DNA from: an uncultured Eggerthellaceae bacterium
Lineage (GTDB): Bacteria > Actinomycetota > Coriobacteriia > Coriobacteriales > Eggerthellaceae
Direction of reading: 5' to 3'
Assembly: GCA_905234785.1 (NCBI GenBank)
Contig: CAJOIP010000012.1
Location: 1 to 64,000 of the forward strand
Length of the DNA stretch: 64,000 nucleotides
Shown: positions 18,628 to 35,692 of the stretch, piece by piece
How positions within the stretch are numbered: position 1 is the first letter of the stretch
Layout: every line of letters begins with the position of its first letter
Position numbers and translations under genes: made by a program
Notes under the pieces: generated by a model
The model's database searches: none
What the model saw: only the letters and a program-made list of their open reading frames with translations
Told to the model about the DNA's origin: nothing

Positions 18628-18645
18628 TATTATGAACAGTGTTCA
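18628..18645 (+). promoter_or_regulatory. -10 and operator-like palindrome of the galactose operon
   Basis: TATTAT (18628-18633) is immediately followed by the palindrome TGAAC-AGT-GTTCA (18633-18645). A repressor bound here would cover the transcription start of the alpha-galactosidase-galK-galT unit. No local regulator gene is seen. Confidence 0.45.
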
Positions 18646-18683
18646 CAACCCTTTTCGATTCGCGATTGTGGAGGGCGGTTTTC

Positions 18684-20501
18684 ATGGCTGACGCATTGTA
18701 CGGGGCCCGTGCTTCGATGGAGCCCGCGGGCTGGGAATTGGTCGTGCGGACCGCTGCGCGGGGAATCCAGCATCCTGTGAAGGCGGACTCGTTCTCGTCA
18801 TTAGAAGATGACGTCGTGTCCGTCGACGTGTCGTTCGATGGCGAGGTCGCGGAACTGGCAATCACGCCCGCCGTGCCCCTGACCGTCGAGTTCAGCCAGG
18901 TGAGGCTGCGCCATGCGTTCGCAAGCGACGAGGCGGTTCTCCTGAACGGCTACCAGTCGTGGACCGACACGACCGAGCAGCCGGCTTGGGGTCGCATGCG
19001 GGGCTTGCGCGGCGTGCCGAAGAAGGTCGTCGAGAACTGGACGCTCGACGGCGGCGGCGACTATGCGGCGGTCGAATACACGGCGCGCCGCGGCGAGCAG
19101 CACGGGTTCACGTACGCCACGTTCCGCCGCGGTGAAGGCATGGTGCTCGTGGGCTCGCTCGACGAATCGAAGGGCTTCACGCTCATTCGCGCGAACGCGC
19201 GCACAGGCGTAGTGCTGCTGGAAACCGAGCCGCCCCTGCGCGAGCTGCAAGCAGGCGAGCGCGTCGTGCTGGGCCGGTATGCCATCACGCGCGGCGCCGA
19301 GGCGCAGTGCTACGACCGGTACTTCGAGCTTTCGGCCTGGCAGGCGCGGCCAGTGAGGCCGCTCGTGGGCTATACCAGCTGGTACCGCCATTATGGCGAA
19401 ATCGACGAGAAGAAACTGGCGAGCGACCTGGCGGGCATGGAATCGTGCCGTTGCGACCGCGAGGGCGTAACCGAGCTCTTCCAAATAGACGATGGCTATT
19501 GCAAAGTGGGCGATTGGCTCGATGTCGACAAAGCCAAGTTCCCGCAGGGTTTGGCGCCCCTTGCCGAGCGCATCCGCGAAGACGGCTTCCTGCCGGGCCT
19601 TTGGGTGGCGCCGTTCGTGTGCGAGAAGGACTCGCGCCTGTTCGTCGAGCACGACGACTGGCTGCTGCGCGACGAGGCGGGCAACCCCGTGCCGACGGGT
19701 TGCCAATGGTCGACGGGCTACGCGCTCGACACGCTGAACGTCGAGGTGCGCAGCTACGTGCTCGAAGTGCTGCAGACCATGACGCAAGAATGGGGTTTCG
19801 GCCTGCTGAAAGCCGACTTCCTGTATGCGGCGTGCATGTTCCCGCATGGCGGCATGAACCGCGGCGAGCTCATGGCCGACGCCATGCAGCTGCTGCGCAC
19901 GGGAACCGAAGACGCAGGCGCGTTAATCTTGGGATGCGGCGTGCCGCTCGGCAGCGCGTTCGGCGTGGTCGACTACTGCCGCATCGGCTGCGACGTGGGC
20001 CTCGATTGGGACGACCTGCCCCACATGCGCCTGCTGCACCGCGAGCGCGTGTCCACGAAGAACTCGCTCGGCAACACGTACGGCCGCGCCCCACTCGACG
20101 GGCGCGCGTTCGGCAACGACCCCGACGTGTTCTTCCTGCGCTCCGACGTGAAGCTGACCGATGCGCAGCGCGACGAGCTGCTGTTCGCCGACGCCGATTC
20201 GGGAAGCGTGTTTTTGACGAGCGACGACATGGGCCAATGGACGCCCGCCATGCGCGCGCGGTACGACCAGGCGCTGGGCATCTTCTGCGAGCGCCACGGC
20301 TGCGCCCCCTGCCATCCCGAGCGGAGCGCGGAGCGTTCCCCCTTGCGCCATCCCGAGCGGAGCGCGGAGCGTTCCCCCTTGCGCCATCCCGAGCGGAGCG
20401 CGGAGCGTTCCCCCCATTGTCATCCTGAGCGGAGCGCGGAGCGCGAAGTCGAAGGATCTCCGCGAAGCGGCGGGAAAGACGAGAGCGGGGGATGGGAGTG
20501 A
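18684..20501 (+). CDS. GH36 alpha-galactosidase with repeat-encoded tail
   Basis: A 605-residue glycoside hydrolase from ATG 18684, with GGAGGG upstream. Residues ~1-220 form the N-terminal beta-sandwich (LLNGYQSWTDT). The TIM barrel follows: YTSWYRHYGEI, FQIDDGYCKVGDW, GLLKADFLYAA with nucleophile D378, and RIGCDVGLDW with acid/base D437. It would release galactose from alpha-galactosides for the GalK/GalT pair downstream. No signal peptide is seen, so it is cytosolic. The last ~60 residues are odd: four 12-residue units HPERSAERSPLR encoded by a 36 bp tandem of the dispersed CATCCCGAGC repeat, overlapping the galK start. Without that tail the length (~545) matches short GH36 enzymes. Confidence 0.92.
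   Translation: MADALYGARASMEPAGWELVVRTAARGIQHPVKADSFSSLEDDVVSVDVSFDGEVAELAITPAVPLTVEFSQVRLRHAFASDEAVLLNGYQSWTDTTEQPAWGRMRGLRGVPKKVVENWTLDGGGDYAAVEYTARRGEQHGFTYATFRRGEGMVLVGSLDESKGFTLIRANARTGVVLLETEPPLRELQAGERVVLGRYAITRGAEAQCYDRYFELSAWQARPVRPLVGYTSWYRHYGEIDEKKLASDLAGMESCRCDREGVTELFQIDDGYCKVGDWLDVDKAKFPQGLAPLAERIREDGFLPGLWVAPFVCEKDSRLFVEHDDWLLRDEAGNPVPTGCQWSTGYALDTLNVEVRSYVLEVLQTMTQEWGFGLLKADFLYAACMFPHGGMNRGELMADAMQLLRTGTEDAGALILGCGVPLGSAFGVVDYCRIGCDVGLDWDDLPHMRLLHRERVSTKNSLGNTYGRAPLDGRAFGNDPDVFFLRSDVKLTDAQRDELLFADADSGSVFLTSDDMGQWTPAMRARYDQALGIFCERHGCAPCHPERSAERSPLRHPERSAERSPLRHPERSAERSPHCHPERSAEREVEGSPRSGGKDESGGWE
20312..20470. repeat. Tandem 36 bp CATCCCGAGC-type repeats inside a gene end
   Basis: CCATCCCGAGCGGAGCGCGG begins units at 20312, 20348 and 20384, with a diverged fourth unit at about 20420, an exact period of 36 bp that keeps the alpha-galactosidase frame open. 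A GAAGGATCTCCGCGAAGCGG end follows. This is the in-gene copy of the family also seen at 7.25, 35.7 and 61.1 kb. Confidence 0.9.
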
Positions 20502-25587: not shown

Positions 25588-25658
25588 TGCCGCGCGTGAG
25601 GTCCTTAGGCTGTGCGTATCGGAAGTTCTAAGAGCGATATTAGGAGAGGATGGCGATC

Positions 25659-26432
25659 ATGAAGATTGGCGGTTTTGGGTTAGTAGAAATTATAGTTCTC
25701 GTCGTTGTTATCGGCGCTGTGGTTGCGGCTGTGGTGTTGCGGCGGAACGGGAAGGCGGGCATAGGCGCAGCGCCGGCGGCTCAGACACGGTTCTGCCCGA
25801 AGTGCGGCGCCGAGCTTCCGGGGGCGGCGACGTTCTGCGCGAAATGCGGCAACCAGTTGCCGGCAAGCGCGGTGCAGCAAGCCGCAGCCTCTCAGGCTGT
25901 ATCATCGAACCCGTTCAATCCGGTCTCGATAGTGGGGCGTGTGTGTGCGGTCATAACGGTCGTCGCCATGTTCATGCCGTGGCTCGAGGTGCCCGCCATG
26001 AAATCCCTCGGAAGCTATGCCTCCATGATCGGCGTTAACATGTCGGGCGATTATGCCTATCCCATGTACAACATGGGCGACGTCACGAAGACGCTCGACA
26101 TGATTTCGAACTCCAATGCTTTCACGGGTATCCAGATGGCGTTCCTGGCGTTTTGGGCCATTGCCCTCGTGCTCGTCTTGGTCGGCCTGGTCCGTTCCTT
26201 CGTGGGGCGGAAGTCAAGCGGCTCGTTACTCGTCGGCGGTATCGTCGCCGCGCTCGTGGCAATTCTGTGGTTCGCGGCGATCATGTACCTCGATGGGGAA
26301 TTCTCGCGTCAGGTTGCCCAGCTCATCGGCAGCCGCGTTCAGTTCTTCGCGATACCCGCAGCCGTATGGGTGACGTTGGTGGCGGGCCTCGCATCTGGCA
26401 TTTTGGGTGCGATCGGCAAGAACAAAGCGTAA
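25659..26432 (+). CDS. Zinc-ribbon membrane protein
   Basis: A 257-residue protein. ATG 25659 (MKIGGFGLVEIIVLVVVIG) is preferred because AGGAGAGG lies ~12 bases upstream; ATG 25650 is only three bases from it. One TM at the N-terminus, a zinc ribbon FCPKCGAELPGAATFCAKCG at ~45-65, then three more hydrophobic segments and an extracytoplasmic loop (PWLEVPAMKSLGSYASMIG). It opens a block of zinc-ribbon genes running to the kinase. The fold-back element and palindrome upstream may regulate it. Function unknown. Confidence 0.78.
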   Translation: MKIGGFGLVEIIVLVVVIGAVVAAVVLRRNGKAGIGAAPAAQTRFCPKCGAELPGAATFCAKCGNQLPASAVQQAAASQAVSSNPFNPVSIVGRVCAVITVVAMFMPWLEVPAMKSLGSYASMIGVNMSGDYAYPMYNMGDVTKTLDMISNSNAFTGIQMAFLAFWAIALVLVLVGLVRSFVGRKSSGSLLVGGIVAALVAILWFAAIMYLDGEFSRQVAQLIGSRVQFFAIPAAVWVTLVAGLASGILGAIGKNKA

Positions 26433-26483
26433 AGCGAATCGAAATCGGCAATCGGAATCTCGTCTTAAGGAAAGGGGACGGAA

Positions 26484-27035
26484 ATGGGATTCTTCGATAA
26501 CGTCAGCGCAGCGGTGAACAGGGGCACGTCGTCGGTGCAGCGCACGGGACGTACTGCACAGCTGAAAATGCAGATGAACGACCTGATGAAGCAGCGCCGC
26601 GATTTGGCTGCCCAGCTTGGCGCCAGTCTGTATGACACCGTGAAGGACATGCCCGAGATGCGCATCGGTCGCGAGCCCATTTTCAAGGGCATCGAGGACA
26701 TCGACAAGCAGCGCGCCAACATCGAAGCCGAAATCGCTCAGATTGAAGCAGCGGCTGCCGAACAGCAGGAGGCGGCTACGACGTACAAGTGCCCGAAGTG
26801 CGGTTCGGGTGTGGCGGCCACTGACCTGTTCTGCAGCGGTTGTGGCACGCCGATTAGCGATGTGAAGGCGTCGGCTGCCCAGCCCGAATCCGAAGCTGCA
26901 AGCGGTTCGAAATGCACGTCCTGTGGCGCCCCGCTCAACGAAGGCGACGTTTTCTGCATGGCGTGCGGCACAAGGCAGGAAGTGGCTCCAGCGCCCGAGC
27001 CCGGCGCTACGGCAGGCGCGGAGCCTGAGAACTAG
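26484..27035 (+). CDS. Coiled-coil protein with two zinc ribbons
   Basis: A 183-residue cytosolic protein. Residues ~25-95 form a helical coiled-coil-like stretch (LKMQMNDLMKQRRDLAAQLG ... IEAEIAQIEAAAAEQQE). Two zinc ribbons follow: YKCPKCGSGVAATDLFCSGCG and SKCTSCGAPLNEGDVFCMACG, each with two CxxC pairs. The tail is Ala/Pro/Glu-rich. AAGGAAAGGGG precedes the ATG. Such proteins are common in gut Actinobacteria and Firmicutes without an assigned role; here it belongs to the envelope-sensing block. Confidence 0.78.
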   Translation: MGFFDNVSAAVNRGTSSVQRTGRTAQLKMQMNDLMKQRRDLAAQLGASLYDTVKDMPEMRIGREPIFKGIEDIDKQRANIEAEIAQIEAAAAEQQEAATTYKCPKCGSGVAATDLFCSGCGTPISDVKASAAQPESEAASGSKCTSCGAPLNEGDVFCMACGTRQEVAPAPEPGATAGAEPEN

Positions 27036-27060
27036 AGTATCCGAAAGGAAAGGGGAAACC

Positions 27061-27966
27061 ATGAAGACTGTCGTAAAGATGACGGCCATAGCCTGCATTT
27101 TCGCACTTGGGTTATTTGGCCTGGTCGCCTGCGGGAGTTCGCAAGCGGCTTCGAGTTCCGCATCAGCTGGGGGCGAATCCGAAAGCGCCGCCTCTGCAGG
27201 AGAGTCATCCGAAAGCGTTGCCTCAACCGTTTCCGCAGGAGTTGCAGTCAAGTCGTCGCTTGATGACTACACGTGGGAAGAGTTGTCGAAAATTTCTGCG
27301 GAAATAGGCGCTTCGTCAGACCGAGATGCGGTTGCGAAAAAATACAACCTGCTCAACTCGAAGGGTCAGCTCGATGGCACCCAGATCAAGAAACTCGAAA
27401 ATGAAGACTATGGCTGGGAAGTTGCCCTCATGGGCTATGACGAGAACGGGCTCGCTTTCATAGCAACGACGTCGTGGGCGGAATGGGATTTTGGTGTATA
27501 TGGCTACTACGGCGATTCTAACGGGTACAGCAAGTCGGAGATTCGTAAGTGCCTGAATGATGAATTGCTTCCCCTGTTGCCGAAAGATCTGAGCTCTGTA
27601 ATCAAAAGTGTGAGCAAGCAGAATTTCAGCGGCACGTCGTGCACTGACAAGTTGTGGATTCCTTCAATGGCCGAGCTTGGCGTTAACGTTGACTACGAAA
27701 ACGGCAAAAACGAAGGGCCTGCTTACAAGCTGTTTGAAGATGCGGCATCGAGGGGCGATTCCTCTGTTTTGCTGCGAACGTCCGATGGCGAAAAGGCCAC
27801 TTCATGGTGGACTCGCAGCATGAAGTCGAAATCAAAGGTACCGCTTAAGAACTCTAATGACTATCAAGTGAAAATCGGCTTCGTGTCTTCAAGTGGAGAA
27901 ATCTACGATGACTTTGCGAACGCAGGACATGAAATGTACGGAGTGGTTCCCTGCTTCTATGTGTAG
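27061..27966 (+). CDS. DUF6273-type lipoprotein
   Basis: A 301-residue lipoprotein starting at ATG 27061, with GAAAGGGGAAACC upstream. Lipobox LVAC (C22), a Ser/Ala/Glu linker of ~40 residues, then a domain with KCLNDELLPLLPKDL, DKLWIPSMAELG, SWWTRSMKSKS and a final GVVPCFYV, the pattern of DUF6273 domains (W-x-RS and x-PxF- endings), which are frequent in gut-bacterial surface proteins and probably bind a ligand. It is likely co-transcribed with the two zinc-ribbon genes before it. Confidence 0.75.
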   Translation: MKTVVKMTAIACIFALGLFGLVACGSSQAASSSASAGGESESAASAGESSESVASTVSAGVAVKSSLDDYTWEELSKISAEIGASSDRDAVAKKYNLLNSKGQLDGTQIKKLENEDYGWEVALMGYDENGLAFIATTSWAEWDFGVYGYYGDSNGYSKSEIRKCLNDELLPLLPKDLSSVIKSVSKQNFSGTSCTDKLWIPSMAELGVNVDYENGKNEGPAYKLFEDAASRGDSSVLLRTSDGEKATSWWTRSMKSKSKVPLKNSNDYQVKIGFVSSSGEIYDDFANAGHEMYGVVPCFYV

Positions 27967-28080
27967 CAATTGAGGGGGATGAGGCTTCTGTCCGTTATGT
28001 GCCTGGGAAACGGGAAACGGGACGTTCAAAAGAAACCAATTTGGTTACTGTATTGCTGGTTTTATTGATTGGGGGCATTC

Positions 28081-28665
28081 ATGTTCTGTCCAAAATGCGG
28101 AAACGAATTGCCGGATACCGCTGCGTTCTGCAACGCATGCGGGGCCACCATCGAGAAGAAGGCGCCTTCGGACGAACCGACGGCCAAGTCGACAGCCAAC
28201 TTGACTGTCAAAAAAACGGGGCTGGGTGTCAATCCGATTGTGATCGGGGGCATCGCGGTTGTCGTCGTGCTCATCGTTGTGTTCGTCGTAGCGATCAGAT
28301 CGTGCTCGTCTAGCAGCGATGGCGGCGAAGTGGCCGCGTCTAGTCCCAGCGCATCCGCTACGAGCAGCGCCACGACGGGCAGTTCGTCCAGTGGCAGCAC
28401 CACTGGCGCGACGTCTATCAACGCGACGAGCAAGTTCACGGGCACCTGGCGCGATCCCGATTACGGTGACACCATGGAGATTGGCGCGAACGGCAATTGC
28501 GTCATCAACCAGAAGGGCGTCGGCACCACGTACTGGACATGGGAGGAAGTCTCCGATGGCATCCGCATTAAGAACAGCGCCAACACGTACGTTCTCAGCT
28601 ACGGTTACGCGAACGGCAGGGAGACCCTGTACAACAACTCGAAAGGTCTGAAGTTCCAACGGTAG
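28081..28665 (+). CDS. Zinc-ribbon single-pass membrane protein
   Basis: A 194-residue protein from ATG 28081 (GGGGGC upstream). Zinc ribbon at the very N-terminus (MFCPKCGNELPDTAAFCNACG), a TM segment near 55-75 (PIVIGGIAVVVVLIVVFVVAI), a Ser/Thr/Ala linker, and an extracellular C-terminal domain FTGTWRDPDYGDTMEIGANG... of lipocalin-like small-barrel type. The same plan (ribbon inside, sensor-like domain outside) repeats in the genes at 29673, 30749 and 31899. Followed by a terminator. Confidence 0.8.
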   Translation: MFCPKCGNELPDTAAFCNACGATIEKKAPSDEPTAKSTANLTVKKTGLGVNPIVIGGIAVVVVLIVVFVVAIRSCSSSSDGGEVAASSPSASATSSATTGSSSSGSTTGATSINATSKFTGTWRDPDYGDTMEIGANGNCVINQKGVGTTYWTWEEVSDGIRIKNSANTYVLSYGYANGRETLYNNSKGLKFQR

Positions 28666-28688
28666 GCGAAGCCCGCAAATGACGAAGC

Positions 28689-28732
28689 CGGCCCCGCAGG
28701 GAAGCTCCTCTCCCCGCGGGGCCGTGTTGTTT
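28689..28732 (+). terminator. Terminator after the 28081 gene
   Basis: GGCCCCGC (28690-28697) pairs with GCGGGGCC (28716-28723), followed by GTGTTGTTT. Confidence 0.8.
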
Positions 28733-28745
28733 AGGGAATGGCGAT

Positions 28746-29153
28746 TTAACGCCCCGGCCTATTTCCACTTTGGGAAGTCGGTTCCTTGTCGTCTGATTGC
28801 TGGGCTGATTCGAGAACCGCTATCAGGCTTGGCAATTCGCCGACGATAATGTCCCATACCAATCGTCTGTCGATTTGGCTATAACCGTGCGCAATGAAAT
28901 TCCGGAAGCCAACGATTTTATCCCAGGGGAAATCGGGCGATGCATCTGTGACCGAGCTGGAGAGGTGCGCGACGTCTTCGACGATGCGGCAAAGCGGGTT
29001 CATCACGGCATCGTAGGCATATTCTCCTTCGAAGCTGTGGTCGTTGCAAAACTTGTCTTCGTCCATCGAGCTATACTCAAGTCGCTTGGTAAACGTTTCA
29101 TAGTCTTCCAAGATGCGCTCGATGAGTATGCTGTCACGTTCAGACGGCGGCAT
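28746..29153 (-). CDS. hepT: HepT-type HEPN ribonuclease toxin
   Basis: A 135-residue HEPN protein with the hallmark R-x4-H-x-Y (RNFIAHGY, R84 to Y91). In MntA-HepT modules the toxin is an RNase whose Tyr is AMPylated by the partner nucleotidyltransferase. The sequence is all-helical as expected (ERILEDYETFTKRLEY, PLCRIVEDVAHL). It overlaps mntA by 14 bases. The pair runs opposite to the surrounding zinc-ribbon genes and splits that block. Confidence 0.88.
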   Translation of the reverse strand: MPPSERDSILIERILEDYETFTKRLEYSSMDEDKFCNDHSFEGEYAYDAVMNPLCRIVEDVAHLSSSVTDASPDFPWDKIVGFRNFIAHGYSQIDRRLVWDIIVGELPSLIAVLESAQQSDDKEPTSQSGNRPGR

Positions 29154-29439
29154 AAAGCATCACCTCGTCCTGCTTTATCCGATCGTAAAATGACCGGCGC
29201 ATCTGGTCGGGGGGCGCTGTAGCTATATCGACTGGCGTGCCCAAAGCCGACTCCAGCTGTTTTTGGATATCACTCAATTGGCCGAAATCAATGTTGCGCC
29301 CGCAAAGGAACCTCAGGTCAATGTCGCTGCTCGCCGATTGGTCACCCCGGGCATACGAGCCGTACAAATATGCTTCGCGCACGTCGTAGGGCTCGACAAC
29401 CGAGCTCACCGCCTGCTTGATTGTGGCGATATCTGTCAT
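29140..29439 (-). CDS. mntA: MntA-type nucleotidyltransferase antitoxin
   Basis: A 99-residue minimal nucleotidyltransferase with YGSYARGDQSASSDIDL: the Gly-Ser motif (27-28) and the D-x-D pair (D39, D41). It would modify the HEPN toxin encoded immediately downstream. Size, order and overlap match the known MntA-HepT arrangement. Confidence 0.88.
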   Translation of the reverse strand: MTDIATIKQAVSSVVEPYDVREAYLYGSYARGDQSASSDIDLRFLCGRNIDFGQLSDIQKQLESALGTPVDIATAPPDQMRRSFYDRIKQDEVMLYAAV

Positions 29440-29524
29440 CTGATTTGCGCCTTTCCGTTGCGGCCATTACAGCGGATGCGGTGTGCGAAGGTCGCATCGT
29501 GTCTTGGCGTATAATCCCAACTAC

Positions 29525-29610
29525 CACACCATAAAGGTTTCCCCGGGGCCCATCCCCTCGAAATCTTGCAACAGCGCACCCCGCAGCGCGGGCGCGATGT
29601 TGCGCAACAC
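29525..29610. promoter_or_regulatory. Shared upstream sequences of the 29673 gene
   Basis: CCACACCATAAAGG (29525-29538) copies the end of the fold-back at 25354, and GCGATGTTGCGCAACAC (29594-29610) copies the 25571 motif. Both lie upstream of a zinc-ribbon gene, at matching distance for the second motif. The far arm of the fold-back is missing here. Confidence 0.4.
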
Positions 29611-29672
29611 CGCGTCAGCCGCATGGGCGATGCTGTTCCCGTGGTGATTAGTGCGATTGAAAGGGGCAATTT

Positions 29673-30707
29673 ATGTTCTGCGTGAAATGCGGTAACGAGA
29701 TTCCCGATGAAAGCGCCTTCTGCCCGAAATGCGGAGCGGAGGTCAAAAAGCCGAAGGTGACCGATGCAGCAGACCGGCAAGGTGAGCTTCCAAACAAGGA
29801 AGAAAGCGGCCAGCTTTCTGGCGCGGCGGAGCCAAGCGAGCAGGAGGGCTCGACAGCCGATGCGAAACCGAAACGCAAGAAGAAGGGCATTGCAATAGCT
29901 GCAGCTTGCCTGGTCGTCATCGCGGCCATAGGCGTGGGCGTCTGGTGGCACTTCGCGCATGCGGAGCACCTGGTCACCGTTGCGGTCGACGCGTCGGGAA
30001 CAGGCGAGGGTTCCACGCCCATTCCCGTTAAAGTGAGCGGGACGGACGCATGTGGCGGCACGGTGGACGAGTACCGGTTCGTCGAGCCGGGCGCCATGGA
30101 CATTATGGTGCTTCCGGGCTCGTACGACTTCTCGTTCGATATTGGGTACGTGACGAGCGACGTGCATGCGGCTTTCCCCCCTGCGACGACGATCCATGTC
30201 GAAGTCGGGCTGTTCGACGATGCGCAGAAAGAGCTCGGCGAAACGGTTCCCTATTATGTCCGGGAAGACGATGAGGTCACAGAGGCACAAATGGAGAAAA
30301 TCTACGAGGCTGCTGCGCAAAATCCCAACGACGGCGGCAAGGCCCAGGTTTTGTGCAGCCAGGTTCTGAGCCATGGCACCTTCATGAAGGCGGCCAAGAC
30401 AAATGCGAAAGGGTTCTTGATGAGCGTCTTTGACACGAAGAACAACGCCGCAAAGAACAGGAGCGTGGGGCAATTTGTCACCAAGGGCAAGTACATTCAG
30501 ACGGGAAGCGGCCTGAGCACAGTTACCGAGCTCAAAGTGACTATGGAATCCGACAGCAAGGTGAGCTACAGCTTGCACTATACGTACGAGGGGCCCTACG
30601 GGACCGCTGGTGCCGCGGACGCAAAAGGCTATCTCGGAATAGCATCAGATGGCAAAGTCGACTCCTGGTACGCCGAGGGTTCCACGCGGAATTCGCTGTA
30701 CGGCTAG
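29673..30707 (+). CDS. Zinc-ribbon membrane protein with large extracellular part
   Basis: A 344-residue protein. N-terminal ribbon MFCVKCGNEIPDESAFCPKCG, a charged linker ending KPKRKKKG, one TM near 72-92, then ~250 extracellular residues with beta-rich segments (LVTVAVDASGTGEGSTPIPVK, GTDACGGTVDEYRFVEPG) and a later part with ASDGKVDSWYAEGSTRN. The basic residues before the TM put the zinc ribbon in the cytoplasm. AAAGGGGC precedes the ATG. Ligand unknown. Confidence 0.78.
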   Translation: MFCVKCGNEIPDESAFCPKCGAEVKKPKVTDAADRQGELPNKEESGQLSGAAEPSEQEGSTADAKPKRKKKGIAIAAACLVVIAAIGVGVWWHFAHAEHLVTVAVDASGTGEGSTPIPVKVSGTDACGGTVDEYRFVEPGAMDIMVLPGSYDFSFDIGYVTSDVHAAFPPATTIHVEVGLFDDAQKELGETVPYYVREDDEVTEAQMEKIYEAAAQNPNDGGKAQVLCSQVLSHGTFMKAAKTNAKGFLMSVFDTKNNAAKNRSVGQFVTKGKYIQTGSGLSTVTELKVTMESDSKVSYSLHYTYEGPYGTAGAADAKGYLGIASDGKVDSWYAEGSTRNSLYG

Positions 30708-30748
30708 GCGCCTGCTTTTCCAAGGTATCGACACGATAGGAGTGAGCC

Positions 30749-31873
30749 ATGTTCTGTCCTAAATGTGGAAACGAATTGCCGGAAGCCGCCGCGTTCTGCA
30801 ACGCATGCGGTGCCAGCATCGAAAAAGCACCCGAAGTCAAGCCGGCTGCGATGTCGACGGCGTATGCCTCGAAGCGGTCGGGCCCGAACCCGAAGTTAAT
30901 TGCCGCCATTGTCGCTCTTGCGGTCGTGGTAATTGTCCTTGTGGTTGCTGTCGGATCCTGCTCTTCGAACGGCAGCGGTTCTGCGGCGTCGTCGCAGGTG
31001 TATTCAGGCAAGCTTGGGAAGCTCGTGGCGCTGTCCAACGACGAGCTTGCCCGCACGCTCGAATCTGACGGGTTCACCAAATCCGGCGACACGTACACGA
31101 AGGGTGAAATCGAAGTCGATCTCGACGATGCCAAGGGTTATCGAATCATTACGGTGAGCGAACCGACCTTGGCGTATCAGCTGCTTAGCAAAGAGGGCCC
31201 CGGGTTCGATCAGTTGGGCGCGTACTTCGAATCGGTTACCGATTCCGAGTTCAGCGTGGGCGTTTGCGATGTCGCTGGGGGCAAAGGCGTCGTCGTGGGC
31301 GCCGGCGGCACATCAGGCTGTCTTGTCATGGTGTTCGAGCCCGGACACTTTGAAAATATGAAAGAGGTTGCCGCGAACGTTTCGTTCTCGAATGCGATGA
31401 GCGCCGATGAAGCAGCGGCGGCATTTGCCGAGGGACTCAAAGGCAAGGGATACGCGCATGTTGATGGCGATGATATTGGCAAGGCAAGCGCGTCCACGAG
31501 CACGTCAACATCCACGACTGCGTCTTCGGGTGCCGCATCGAGCACGTCTGGATCGGTTGCGACTCACGACACGCTTACCGGGACGGTGCTCTGCTCCGGC
31601 GGAAAGGCGCCCGATGCAGTGAACAAGGTTTTGATAAGCGACGATGAAATCATCATCGTGGGTAAGCTCAACTGGAAAGACGGGGGAACGCTCGGCTCGA
31701 AAACCTGGTCGTTCGGGCTTGACGAGGACACGGTTTACGGTGGGGTCTCGGGACAGGGTTTCAAGGAACAGCCTCTCTCCGAGGTTGCCGGCAATTGGGA
31801 GTCGTGCAATTTCCCCACACTGGTGCTCGAGCTGGAAGACGGCATGGTGAAACGGGCGTACCAGCAATCCTAG
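30749..31873 (+). CDS. Zinc-ribbon membrane protein
   Basis: A 374-residue protein. Ribbon MFCPKCGNELPEAAAFCNACG almost identical to that of the 28081 gene, TM near 51-71 (LIAAIVALAVVVIVLVVAV), then an extracellular DUF-like domain (LARTLESDGFTKSGDTYTKG ... FEPGHFENMKEVAANVSFS), a Ser/Thr linker, and a second small domain beginning TLTGTVLCSGGKAPDAVNKV. GATAGGAG precedes the ATG. It lies 41 bases after the previous gene, in the same likely transcript. Confidence 0.78.
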   Translation: MFCPKCGNELPEAAAFCNACGASIEKAPEVKPAAMSTAYASKRSGPNPKLIAAIVALAVVVIVLVVAVGSCSSNGSGSAASSQVYSGKLGKLVALSNDELARTLESDGFTKSGDTYTKGEIEVDLDDAKGYRIITVSEPTLAYQLLSKEGPGFDQLGAYFESVTDSEFSVGVCDVAGGKGVVVGAGGTSGCLVMVFEPGHFENMKEVAANVSFSNAMSADEAAAAFAEGLKGKGYAHVDGDDIGKASASTSTSTSTTASSGAASSTSGSVATHDTLTGTVLCSGGKAPDAVNKVLISDDEIIIVGKLNWKDGGTLGSKTWSFGLDEDTVYGGVSGQGFKEQPLSEVAGNWESCNFPTLVLELEDGMVKRAYQQS

Positions 31874-31898: not shown

Positions 31899-32981
31899 AT
31901 GTTTTGCTCACAGTGCAGTGCGAACGTGCCCGAAGGCAAGCGGTTTTGCACGGTTTGCGGCTATCCGGTCGGCCAAATCACGAATGCCGTGGAGGCGGGG
32001 CAGGATGTCGGCGGCGCAGATGATGCCAGGCAAAACGAGCGGCTGGCCCAATTGCAGCGTGAGCAGGCCGATGCGTTGCAGGCCGAACGCGAACGCGTGC
32101 TCGAATCGTACGAGGCGTCGCGCAATGTGGAAACGACACCGGTGGCGCAGGTGCTCGATCACGGGCGCGTGGCGTACAGTCCGTTGTCCTGCGCAAGCGA
32201 GCAAGCATCTGAGAAGGACGCGAAAGTCGAGTTGAAGGAGGCCAAGGCCGCTTACAAGAGCGTACGGAAAGCGGCTGGCAAGTCCGCGGCGCCGAAGGCG
32301 ATCGCCGTCATTATGGCGATTGTCGTGGCTGCCGGCGTCGGCGCGGGAGCCATGTGGTGGTTCTCGGGACAGCAATCGGGCCCAGCGCCCGCGCAAAGTG
32401 CGGTGAGCTCCTCGGTTTCGGACGGCTCCGCATCGGCGGAAGCGCTTTCTGAGGGCACCTCATCCGAAAGCGTCTCTTCCAATGCCTCTTCGTCGTCTTC
32501 GGCGAGCGCGGTCGCCTTATCGGGCGACTTGTCATCGGCCAACGCGCAGGGCGGAATCGAATCCTATGTCGGCATCTGGAAAGGCGATATGGTCGAGCCC
32601 ACGCATTATGCGTTCGTCGCCTGTTGTTACGGGGCCGAGAGGCATCCGCTCGTCTTGGACATCAAGAAGGTTAGCGCAACGGGCAGGATTACGGCGGATG
32701 CGCGCGTGCTCTTCCACGAGCATGAAGACTTGCAGGGCGCAGACGCTGCATCGGCGGAAGGTGACACGTACCTCGAGCTCCGCAATCTTGTCGGAACGCT
32801 TTCGGATGACGGGTCGTTCAGCTTCCATGACGAACTAGCCGAGCGTGGCGAGTACGAAGGGGTGACGATTAACGTCAAGACGGTCGACGCTCCTGATGGG
32901 ACGCGCTCACTCGAGGTTACGGTCGATTCGGAGGTGCTCGGCGGCCATGCGACCGATTTCTACGTGCTTGAGAAGCAATAA
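31899..32981 (+). CDS. Zinc-ribbon membrane protein sharing the kinase's sensor domain
   Basis: A 360-residue protein from ATG 31899 (GAGAGGGGGC upstream; an upstream GTG is less likely). Ribbon MFCSQCSANVPEGKRFCTVCG, a ~75-residue helical cytosolic stretch rich in Glu/Gln/Arg, TM near 137-157 (AIAVIMAIVVAAGVGAGAMWW), Ser/Ala linker, then an extracellular domain YVGIWKGDMV, CCYGAERHPLVLDI, ADARVLFHEHEDLQG, FYVLEK. The kinase encoded next has the same pattern in its extracellular part, so the two proteins probably sense the same kind of signal (inference). Confidence 0.8.
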   Translation: MFCSQCSANVPEGKRFCTVCGYPVGQITNAVEAGQDVGGADDARQNERLAQLQREQADALQAERERVLESYEASRNVETTPVAQVLDHGRVAYSPLSCASEQASEKDAKVELKEAKAAYKSVRKAAGKSAAPKAIAVIMAIVVAAGVGAGAMWWFSGQQSGPAPAQSAVSSSVSDGSASAEALSEGTSSESVSSNASSSSSASAVALSGDLSSANAQGGIESYVGIWKGDMVEPTHYAFVACCYGAERHPLVLDIKKVSATGRITADARVLFHEHEDLQGADAASAEGDTYLELRNLVGTLSDDGSFSFHDELAERGEYEGVTINVKTVDAPDGTRSLEVTVDSEVLGGHATDFYVLEKQ

Positions 32982-32993
32982 GGGATTTCGGGA

Positions 32994-34748
32994 GTGGCCG
33001 AGGCGATTTGGCATATCGATGATATAACGTTCGCGTTCGGTGAGGCGACCATCGAGCGTATTGGGGCATGCTCCACTCTGTTTGTCGACTCTGATTCGTT
33101 TTCGCGTGGCGGCTTGGGCGAGACGCGGCGCGTTCGGACGGCGGCGGGCGATGCGCTCGCGTGCAAGGTCATGTTGCTGCCCGACCGTGCGCTGTTCTCG
33201 TCGGTCGACGCCTATGACGAGGAGGTCGCGCATCGGATGCGGGCCTTCCGTGAGGAATATGACGCGCTTTGCCGGCTTTCGAGCTTCAAGGGGTTTGTCA
33301 AGGCGCATGCGTATGGACGGGTGGGCGACGCCCCCGCTATCCTGATGGAGTGGGTCGAGGGAGTGTCGCTTGCCGATGTCCTGATGGATCGTGGCGCGTT
33401 GCCGGCCCTTACAGTCGCACAGATTGGCCGCGACCTGTTCCATTTGCTCGCACGCTTGGAATGGCAGGCCGAGCTGTTTGTGCACCGCGACATCTCGCCG
33501 GCCAACGTTATGGTTCGAACACATGAAATGCCGTTCGACGCCCAATGTGCAGCGGGCACCTTCGACATCTGCCTCATCGATTTCGGCTCCGCCACGACGC
33601 TGCGCGAGGGAGATGGCGCGTTCACGGTCAGCACCCAAATACTGCGCGGCGCGACGCCTGCTTACGCCGCCCCCGAAATGCTCTCGATCGATTTACCGCG
33701 CCTTGCCAAGTTGAGGCGTTCTCCGAAAATTGACGTGTATGCGGCGTGCTCGGTCCTGTATGCGCTGCTTTGCGGCCATCCACCATTTGAACTAGGCTCT
33801 GCAAACCAGATGGGTTCCGATTACGTGTTGAAGATGACACGCGACCCGCTGCCTACGGGGTTTGCCGCCGAAACGCTCGAAGCGTTGCTCGCGGACATCG
33901 CCTGTAGCGGCATCCGTCCCTCGCAGGACGAACGGCCCAGCTCGTATGCCCTGTTCAAGGCGCTTGAGCATTATTGTGTCTACTATCCTGAAAACGTGCG
34001 GCGACTTCAAGCGGGGGAGGGCCCCGTTGTCCTCGATGTGCGCGTTATCGACCATCCCCGTCCTGGTGTCGACCAGGTTGCGTTGTCAAACCCGCTTGCC
34101 CACAAGCAGTCGCCTTCAAGTGGGATTCCGGTTCACAGTCGGCAGCCGCAGCGCGAAGGGACGGTGGGAGAAAAGCGCGTGCGGAGGATTCCCAAAGCGC
34201 TCGGCGTGCTTTTCGCTGTCGTGGTGGCGCTGGCGGTGGGTTTCGTCGCCCTTTCCGCAAGCGGAATCTTACGTGTGCCGCACGCCGATTCCCCCGAAAC
34301 GACCAGCGAGCTTGCGGTTTCGGGCGCTTCTCAAGAGGACGATTCGCCCCTTGTAGGAGCTTGGACGGGTACGCTCGTTTCGACCAGCGAGGGCCCGGCT
34401 TGCTACGGCGGCCGCCAAAGCCCGGTACGTTTGACGATTGCGCAGGCGGATGGCAACGACCTTACCTTCGACGCGGTCGTCGTGTATCACGGGCACAACC
34501 GGCAGACGCAAACAGCCGATGCGTCATCGAGCACGGGGGATGCCGTTCAGGAACATGAGGGCCTTTCGGCGACGCTTGTGAACGGCGCGTTTTCGGTGTC
34601 GGTAGACGAATCGGCGCTCATGGGACGCGATTCATCGCTCACGTTGAATTGCAACCTTGGCGAAGACGGGGCGACGATGACGGTCGAAGCCGTGAGCCGC
34701 TTCAAAGGGGCCGAGACGGTTGACGTGTACGAGCTCGAACGGGGGTAG
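32994..34748 (+). CDS. Transmembrane Ser/Thr protein kinase (Hanks type)
   Basis: A 584-residue kinase starting at GTG (CGGGAGTG context). Kinase domain ~25-320: GGLGETRRV in place of a normal Gly-rich loop, ACKVM with the ATP lysine K58, catalytic loop HRDISPANVM (D166), DFGSA (D196), and TPAYAAPEML. The P+1/activation part is typical for bacterial kinases. A TM at ~403-423 follows, then an extracellular domain LVGAWTGTLV, ACYGGRQSPVRLTI, FDAVVVYHGHNRQ, VYELE, matching that of the preceding zinc-ribbon protein. No PASTA domains. An FHA protein is encoded six bases downstream. Confidence 0.92.
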   Translation: MAEAIWHIDDITFAFGEATIERIGACSTLFVDSDSFSRGGLGETRRVRTAAGDALACKVMLLPDRALFSSVDAYDEEVAHRMRAFREEYDALCRLSSFKGFVKAHAYGRVGDAPAILMEWVEGVSLADVLMDRGALPALTVAQIGRDLFHLLARLEWQAELFVHRDISPANVMVRTHEMPFDAQCAAGTFDICLIDFGSATTLREGDGAFTVSTQILRGATPAYAAPEMLSIDLPRLAKLRRSPKIDVYAACSVLYALLCGHPPFELGSANQMGSDYVLKMTRDPLPTGFAAETLEALLADIACSGIRPSQDERPSSYALFKALEHYCVYYPENVRRLQAGEGPVVLDVRVIDHPRPGVDQVALSNPLAHKQSPSSGIPVHSRQPQREGTVGEKRVRRIPKALGVLFAVVVALAVGFVALSASGILRVPHADSPETTSELAVSGASQEDDSPLVGAWTGTLVSTSEGPACYGGRQSPVRLTIAQADGNDLTFDAVVVYHGHNRQTQTADASSSTGDAVQEHEGLSATLVNGAFSVSVDESALMGRDSSLTLNCNLGEDGATMTVEAVSRFKGAETVDVYELERG

Positions 34749-34753
34749 CGCTA

Positions 34754-35692
34754 ATGGAAACGCCGCGTGAAGTGCTGTTCCGCACGATGCAGGAAAACTG
34801 GGCCATCAGCAACAAGGACCTGGCGCGCGCCATCTTGATGGAGGGGTCCGTGACGAGCGGCAAGTCGCCACAGGAGCTCATCGAAGTTCGCAGCTCGCTT
34901 TCGCGATTCGTCGTGCACGTGCAGCCAGGGGAGTACACGTACGGTTGGCTCGCGCCTTACGAACAGGCTGTTCCCAGGGTGATGGTGTTGATAAAGCGGT
35001 CGAAGCGGCCGCATTCGAGCCGCGACATCGTGTCGGCGCTTTCCGATGCCGCCACTGACATGAAGGCGTCGTTTGAGGCGCACAAGCTGGACGGTGCATT
35101 GTACGCGAATGTGTCAGAGCGCTTCTCGCGGGAGGGGGTGGTGAGTGCTGCCGATGCGTCCGAGCTGATGGTGGCCCTGTTCGTCGTGGCCGGTTGCTCG
35201 GGAAGTTCAACGTCGGCAGTCGAGTACGCCATCGGGCTTGCGAACAAGTTGTCTGCTGCATCCGCATTGAAGACGTCCTTTCCCGCCGAAACGGATATGG
35301 AGAGGGAGAAGGGCCCTGTGGCGTTTGGCATGTACCGTTGCGAGGGCGGCGTTTTGCTCAGCGACGTGTATCGCCTGGCTACAGATGAGCGGGGAACCGA
35401 GGTGGGTGCGCTGTCCCTCACGGAGCATTCCGTTAACGACGTCGGCTATGGTGTGTCGCGTCGACATCTGCGCATTTGGTGCGAGGGCGATGGCACGTGG
35501 TGGGTCGAGGGGTTGGGCTCTACGAATGGCACCGTGCATATCAGCGGCGTCGACGGTGCCGAGACCGTTGTGGAGCCTCCGCGGGCGCAGCGGGGCGAGC
35601 GCGCAGCGCAACCAGTGCGCTTGCTTTCCGGCGATCGGCTGCTATTGGCTGGCACCACGGAATTCGTGATCGTCACCCTTCCCGAGAGCTGA
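34754..35692 (+). CDS. FHA-domain protein
   Basis: A 312-residue cytosolic protein. Residues ~1-190 are mostly helical with no recognised family. The C-terminal ~90 residues form a forkhead-associated phosphothreonine-binding domain: YGVSRRHLRIWCEGDGTWW followed by GLGSTNGTVHISG and RLLSGDRLLLAGTTEF, i.e. the conserved SRRH and STNGT blocks. Encoded six bases after the kinase, it is the obvious reader of kinase phosphorylation. The N-terminal helical part may be the output or scaffold region. Confidence 0.92.
   Translation: METPREVLFRTMQENWAISNKDLARAILMEGSVTSGKSPQELIEVRSSLSRFVVHVQPGEYTYGWLAPYEQAVPRVMVLIKRSKRPHSSRDIVSALSDAATDMKASFEAHKLDGALYANVSERFSREGVVSAADASELMVALFVVAGCSGSSTSAVEYAIGLANKLSAASALKTSFPAETDMEREKGPVAFGMYRCEGGVLLSDVYRLATDERGTEVGALSLTEHSVNDVGYGVSRRHLRIWCEGDGTWWVEGLGSTNGTVHISGVDGAETVVEPPRAQRGERAAQPVRLLSGDRLLLAGTTEFVIVTLPES

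Follow-up and report, generated by a model that had tools for sequence, protein, structure and literature searches.

A candidate receptor kinase–FHA module with exchangeable ectodomains in an Eggerthellaceae bacterium and its relatives

A protein kinase gene and an FHA gene form a conserved genetic unit in part of the class Coriobacteriia, and on the kinase tree the sensor domain outside has been exchanged several times while the FHA partner stays. We describe this unit from a stretch of 64,000 nucleotides of an uncultured Eggerthellaceae bacterium (GenBank assembly GCA_905234785.1, contig CAJOIP010000012.1, positions 1 to 64,000), the whole of which we call the window. Three genes on its + strand, spanning 31899–35692 with gaps of 12 and 5 base pairs (bp), encode a zinc-ribbon/transmembrane protein, a transmembrane kinase and an FHA protein, and the first two end in the same ectodomain. 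With a probability of about 0.55, we read this trio as a receptor kinase–FHA module with exchangeable sensors, in which zinc-ribbon accessory proteins draw on the same pool of ectodomains. An earlier note on this DNA had given the gene coordinates and the 12-base gap just as our open reading frames and Pfam matches place them. It had also put the FHA gene six bases after the kinase; the gene does follow directly, but six is the offset to its start codon and the gap is 5 bp.

A shared ectodomain on adjacent membrane proteins

The trio and its parts are as follows.
31899..32981, + strand: zinc-ribbon protein with a single transmembrane helix and an ectodomain; 360 amino acids, ATG start (open reading frame, Zn_Ribbon_1 match)
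31899..31970, + strand: N-terminal zinc ribbon of this protein, CSQC-x10-CTVC (PF13240, E-value 4.6e-6)
32298..32354, + strand: its predicted transmembrane helix (hydropathy scan)
32550..32978, + strand: its ectodomain, a GxW-CYG-HxH domain (alignments A1 and A4; profile matches)
32994..34748, + strand: transmembrane protein kinase; 584 amino acids, GTG start, one transmembrane helix (PF00069, E-value 1.9e-18; family alignment A2)
33069..34001, + strand: catalytic domain of the kinase, which has K, E, HRD..N, DFG and APE but a Ser in place of the catalytic-loop Lys (invariant columns of A2)
34197..34253, + strand: predicted kinase transmembrane helix, without the twin-arginine motif found in other members
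34335..34745, + strand: kinase ectodomain, of the same family as 32550..32978 (AlphaFold2 beta-barrel, pLDDT 83.5, pTM 0.79)
34754..35692, + strand: FHA protein with an N-terminal helical domain and a C-terminal FHA domain; 312 amino acids (PF00498, E-value 4.4e-7; AlphaFold2 pLDDT 90.7; FHA fold matches)

The ectodomains of the zinc-ribbon protein and the kinase are homologous over their whole length, as the earlier note had held. They align with a Smith–Waterman score of 135, compared with a mean of 31.5, a standard deviation of 5.8 and a maximum of 61 in 5000 shuffles. Searched against its own genome, the kinase finds the zinc-ribbon ectodomain at an E-value of 9.9e-10 and 35% identity, and the shuffles together with the profile matches rule out a chance likeness. 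Identity between the two domains runs from ∼29 to 36% depending on the alignment, and both are long-branched. The domain measures ∼140 amino acids, among which G8, W10, C23, G25, H52, H54, D69, G97 and D130 are invariant in the nine sequences of alignment A1. A known Pfam family is excluded as its identity, since none of the seven members scanned gave a match above the cut-off. A sequence search of solved structures with the ectodomain profile likewise returned nothing significant.

The shared domain is probably, although not certainly, a calycin-like beta-barrel. From eight sequences, AlphaFold2 predicts a barrel that is all beta apart from two short helices, at the scores listed above. Foldseek matches this model to bile- and fatty-acid-binding proteins, lipocalins and designed barrels (E-values 2e-4 to 7e-3), and the VIA-align matches include avidins at Z 8–9. 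Calycins have in common a GxW motif on the first strand. The model carries GxW at that position and gives barrel matches, but only at TM-scores of about 0.45–0.55 and Z of about 8–9, and without a sequence match.

Profile matches to the domain occur in 77 of the 398 genomes of the class. In the loci that we read there are 70 carriers: the kinases of the window and of a genome of the same genus (G120), and 68 other proteins, many of them with a zinc ribbon and one transmembrane helix, others including the G034 lipoprotein and, for G031, a protein whose repeats resemble wall-binding ones. Twelve of these 68 lie <5 kb from a kinase of the window family, in three bacterial families, and 10 of the 12 have a recognisable zinc ribbon; by our estimate, the chance of such proximity is roughly 0.5% per carrier in genomes of ∼2.3 Mb. 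The kinases near zinc-ribbon carriers usually bear WG repeats, the DUF6273 domain or no ectodomain. In G120, the counterpart of the window zinc-ribbon protein is L043_47, and the kinase ends at the contig end, so that its ectodomain is partly visible and the FHA position lies beyond the contig.

A kinase–FHA core with exchanged sensors

Across the class, 88 of the 398 genomes have the kinase family and 96 have the FHA protein (22–24%). An FHA gene is found within 500 bp of 65 of 76 kinases, 39 times downstream and 26 times upstream, and on the same strand in 64 cases. Named carriers, from a search with the kinase alignment, include Collinsella, Olsenella, Slackia, Adlercreutzia, Enorma, Senegalimassilia and Thermophilibacter. 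Outside the window's order, the FHA protein had no match in a sample, not an exhaustive set, of 396 genomes of the phylum.

Both core proteins carry the marks of their families. The FHA protein matches PF00498 and the FHA fold, and two alignments that overlap in part, A3 (23 rows) and A5 (31 rows), conserve the S and H of SxxH and the N and G of NG in every row or almost every row; AlphaFold2 predicts its helical domain at residues 4–175. Two FHA-family frames, L117_46 (L117:10205-12241, 678 amino acids) and L111_48 (L111:12284-14383, 699 amino acids), have a long extra N-terminal part that matches no Pfam family and may be in part a spurious extension of the frame. By its Hanks-type fold residues, the window kinase is a member of the protein kinase superfamily with putative Ser/Thr activity. 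K34, E64, H140-R141-D142, N147, D172, G174 and P203-E204 are invariant in alignment A2; the F of DFG is not. A Pfam scan found no PASTA repeats in it, and the NCBIfam model PknB_PASTA_kin reached 62 bits where its cut-off is 450. One further locus, L072 (G131:C5:76000-95000), holds six open frames with kinase matches in 19 kb, the kinase part being N-terminal to the transmembrane helix.

The C-terminal part of the kinase, predicted to lie outside in the single-transmembrane members, differs between them. Among 32 single-transmembrane kinases with a C-terminal stretch, 19 have DUF6273, nine WG repeats, two the barrel and two only short tails, classes that were confirmed with Pfam on examples. 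The remaining kinases of the 76 comprise 33 multi-transmembrane and 11 apparently soluble proteins. In a quick tree, the kinases of the window and G120 form one clade (100) within a clade (96) that is otherwise nearly all multi-transmembrane, and six architecture labels require 13 state changes on this tree, compared with 38 in shuffles. DUF6273 and the barrel also occur on zinc-ribbon/transmembrane proteins and lipoproteins. In published models, DUF6273 resembles C-type lectin domains (PMC10743442).

A putative export signal follows the same division. The motif [ST]RRx[FLVIA] stands directly before a Gly/Ala-rich transmembrane helix in 27 of 28 kinases with WG or DUF6273 ectodomains, compared with two of 33 multi-transmembrane kinases; before the helix, it is found in none of 67 nonkinase barrel proteins and in neither of the two barrel kinases. 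It looks like an internal signal for twin-arginine translocation (Tat), an interpretation that rests on motif counts and is no proof, and TatC is present in all 24 genomes tested. Ectodomain and export route may move together, because the WG and DUF6273 kinases have the motif and the barrel kinases are without it. Kinases with WG or DUF6273 ectodomains that bear it include those of L110, L111, L112, L117, L124 and L175. A zinc-ribbon/transmembrane/DUF6273 protein, L175_95, has such a motif as well (TRRAF).

Weighing the explanations

In the reading that we prefer, the kinase would be a receptor, with its catalytic domain in the cytosol, one transmembrane helix and, outside, a ligand-binding beta-barrel of calycin-like type. 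Inside the cell, its FHA neighbor would act with it, either as a substrate or as a scaffold. The zinc-ribbon proteins would be membrane-anchored accessories exposing ectodomains of the same pool, and at the envelope they may be co-sensors or competitors. In the window's genus, a barrel also used by zinc-ribbon proteins would have taken the place of the kinase's usual C terminus. We consider possible, at clearly lower odds, a broader version in which one kinase–FHA core serves the whole order as a receptor system. Its ligand-binding ectodomains would be exchangeable (barrel, C-type-lectin-like DUF6273, WG repeats or multi-transmembrane parts), zinc-ribbon co-sensors would display domains of the same pool, and the export route would move with the ectodomain.

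Several observations weigh against the receptor module. First, all 19 kinases aligned in A2 have Ser (HRD[ILV]S) in place of the catalytic-loop Lys (HRDLKxxN), and kinase activity is therefore in question. Second, the phosphate-contacting Arg of the FHA GR signature is absent from every row of A3 and A5, its position being occupied by Ala, Ser, Thr or another residue and never by Arg; because of this absence, the reading of phosphothreonine by the FHA domain is in doubt. The "FHA output" proposed in the earlier note is to be taken with caution for the same reason. Third, the calycin-like assignment falls short of certainty because Z values of ∼8 are common among beta-barrels, close to background level according to the note supplied with VIA-align. 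Fourth, the domain is mostly off kinases: as fusions, only two of the 70 carriers found in the profile search are kinases, an outcome that the earlier note had named as telling against its own proposal, and 56 of the 68 nonkinase carriers have no such kinase nearby.

Under a leaner explanation, the kinase and FHA protein would make up a phosphorylation module that the zinc-ribbon genes adjoin for regulatory or historical reasons only. A single-transmembrane Gly/Ser-rich protein stands beside the kinase in 22 loci, mostly those of multi-transmembrane kinases, and the clade that these loci form has it in place of a zinc-ribbon neighbor, as this explanation would allow. However, related zinc-ribbon/transmembrane proteins recur in 14 kinase loci that span both main kinase clades, and we find it doubtful that they are mere neighbors.

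The earlier note had instead proposed co-receptors: the kinase and the zinc-ribbon protein would heterodimerise and bind one ligand through the same domain, the ribbon passing on or modulating the signal. The shared domain is real, the genes are adjacent with that domain in both the window and G120, zinc-ribbon carriers stand beside kinases in three families, and locus L175 offers a parallel, since its kinase and a zinc-ribbon/transmembrane protein ∼11 kb away both carry DUF6273. However, a shared ectodomain was rejected as a rule for the module at large, because a same-locus neighbor with the kinase's ectodomain was found for few loci: BLAST with the 32 single-transmembrane kinases returned the window and L175 only, and the profile added G120. 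A common ligand for both proteins is not the rule, because only two kinases carry the domain and most others have DUF6273, WG repeats or a multi-transmembrane part, so that the kinase beside a zinc-ribbon carrier mostly differs from it in ectodomain. The low identity and long branches of the two window ectodomains also argue against such a pair; trees neither showed nor rejected a local duplication of the domain (approximately unbiased (AU) test, p = 0.25 and 0.38). We thus regard co-receptors as one possible reading of few loci, and an unlikely one for the system, whose general pattern is a kinase–FHA core with exchangeable sensors. It is equally improbable that the barrel is a generic wall- or ligand-binding unit found on kinase and neighbor without a shared function: its presence on the G034 lipoprotein, the G031 repeat protein and ∼56 proteins away from kinases fits this idea, but in 12 loci, spread over three families, carriers are linked with kinases of the window family.

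The earlier note knew of no description of this combination, and the open-access literature that we searched yielded no published description of the kinase–FHA module either. Collinsella, Olsenella and Slackia are among the common gut bacteria that carry the module. With its sensor exchanged several times and its FHA partner constant, it offers a natural series for studying the control of bacterial kinases by a domain outside the cell, and this series could bear on which signals these gut bacteria sense.

Known systems and surrounding genes

The mycobacterial PknB/FhaA/FhaB(FipA) and PknH/EmbR systems likewise pair a transmembrane Ser/Thr kinase bearing an extracellular sensor with an FHA partner. 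PknB is the best solved-structure sequence match of the window kinase (E-value 1e-10), and the FHA profile matches FhaA (TB39.8; E-value 9e-5). Unlike these systems, the window module lacks PASTA repeats, exchanges its sensor between members and has zinc-ribbon neighbors, and its FHA protein joins an N-terminal helical domain to an FHA domain that is without the GR Arg. The sensor domain of Mycobacterium tuberculosis PknI (5xlm) matches the kinase ectodomain model in VIA-align (Z 8.0, root-mean-square deviation 3.3, 106 residues), at 9% identity and with a Z similar to that of many barrels. TcaA-type proteins of Firmicutes have an N-terminal zinc ribbon, one transmembrane helix and an extracellular C terminus, a likeness to the window zinc-ribbon protein in architecture. 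In the window protein, the segment between ribbon and helix had no family match in the Pfam scan. Anti-phage defence kinases (PD-T4-6, MADS6 and PglW) gave matches confined to the kinase domain, with the MADS6 NCBIfam model at 60 bits (cut-off 460), and PADLOC had no match for the zinc-ribbon or FHA protein of the window. With matches to the kinase domain only, a defence-system reading appears unlikely.

M. tuberculosis PknD is a kinase with a beta-propeller sensor (PMC6213207). Its repeat-type sensor is comparable in idea to those of the WG-repeat kinases, whereas the window kinase has a predicted barrel. In actinobacterial GAP1-N2 GTPase systems, a kinase, a zinc ribbon and a beta-rich domain or transmembrane segment share one neighborhood (PMC7159879). 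There the ribbon is fused to the kinase and PP2C and vWA genes are linked (PMC7159879), whereas the window ribbon is a separate protein; PP2C and vWA were not identified among the genes beside the window kinase, which were read without a profile for either.

Upstream of the trio, from 25650 onward, lie five more zinc-ribbon genes and one gene for a DUF6273 lipoprotein-like protein.
25650..26432, + strand: multi-transmembrane zinc-ribbon protein; a similar type, by architecture and not direct comparison, in clusters L111, L112, L113, L114 and L118
26484..27035, + strand: coiled-coil-like protein with two zinc ribbons (open reading frame, Pfam scan)
27061..27966, + strand: lipoprotein-like DUF6273 protein (PF19789, E-value 1.4e-11; BLAST E-value 5e-16 to kinase ectodomains)
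28069-28665, 29673-30707 and 30749-31873, + strand: three further zinc-ribbon/single-transmembrane proteins with other ectodomains

Ectodomains homologous to the DUF6273 domain of the 27061..27966 protein are those of 19 other kinases in the family. Look-alikes of the 26484..27035 protein, judged by a common motif (MGFxDNVS...QLGASLYD), occur in the kinase loci L047, L110, L113, L114, L120 and L175, and the zinc-ribbon types of the 25650-31873 run resemble those that recur at other kinase loci. Downstream of the trio are genes that we call cobalamin-type from reading their sequence. Farther upstream, the open reading frame at 18639-20501 ends in a repeated 'RHPERSAERSPL', probably a DNA repeat that is read through.

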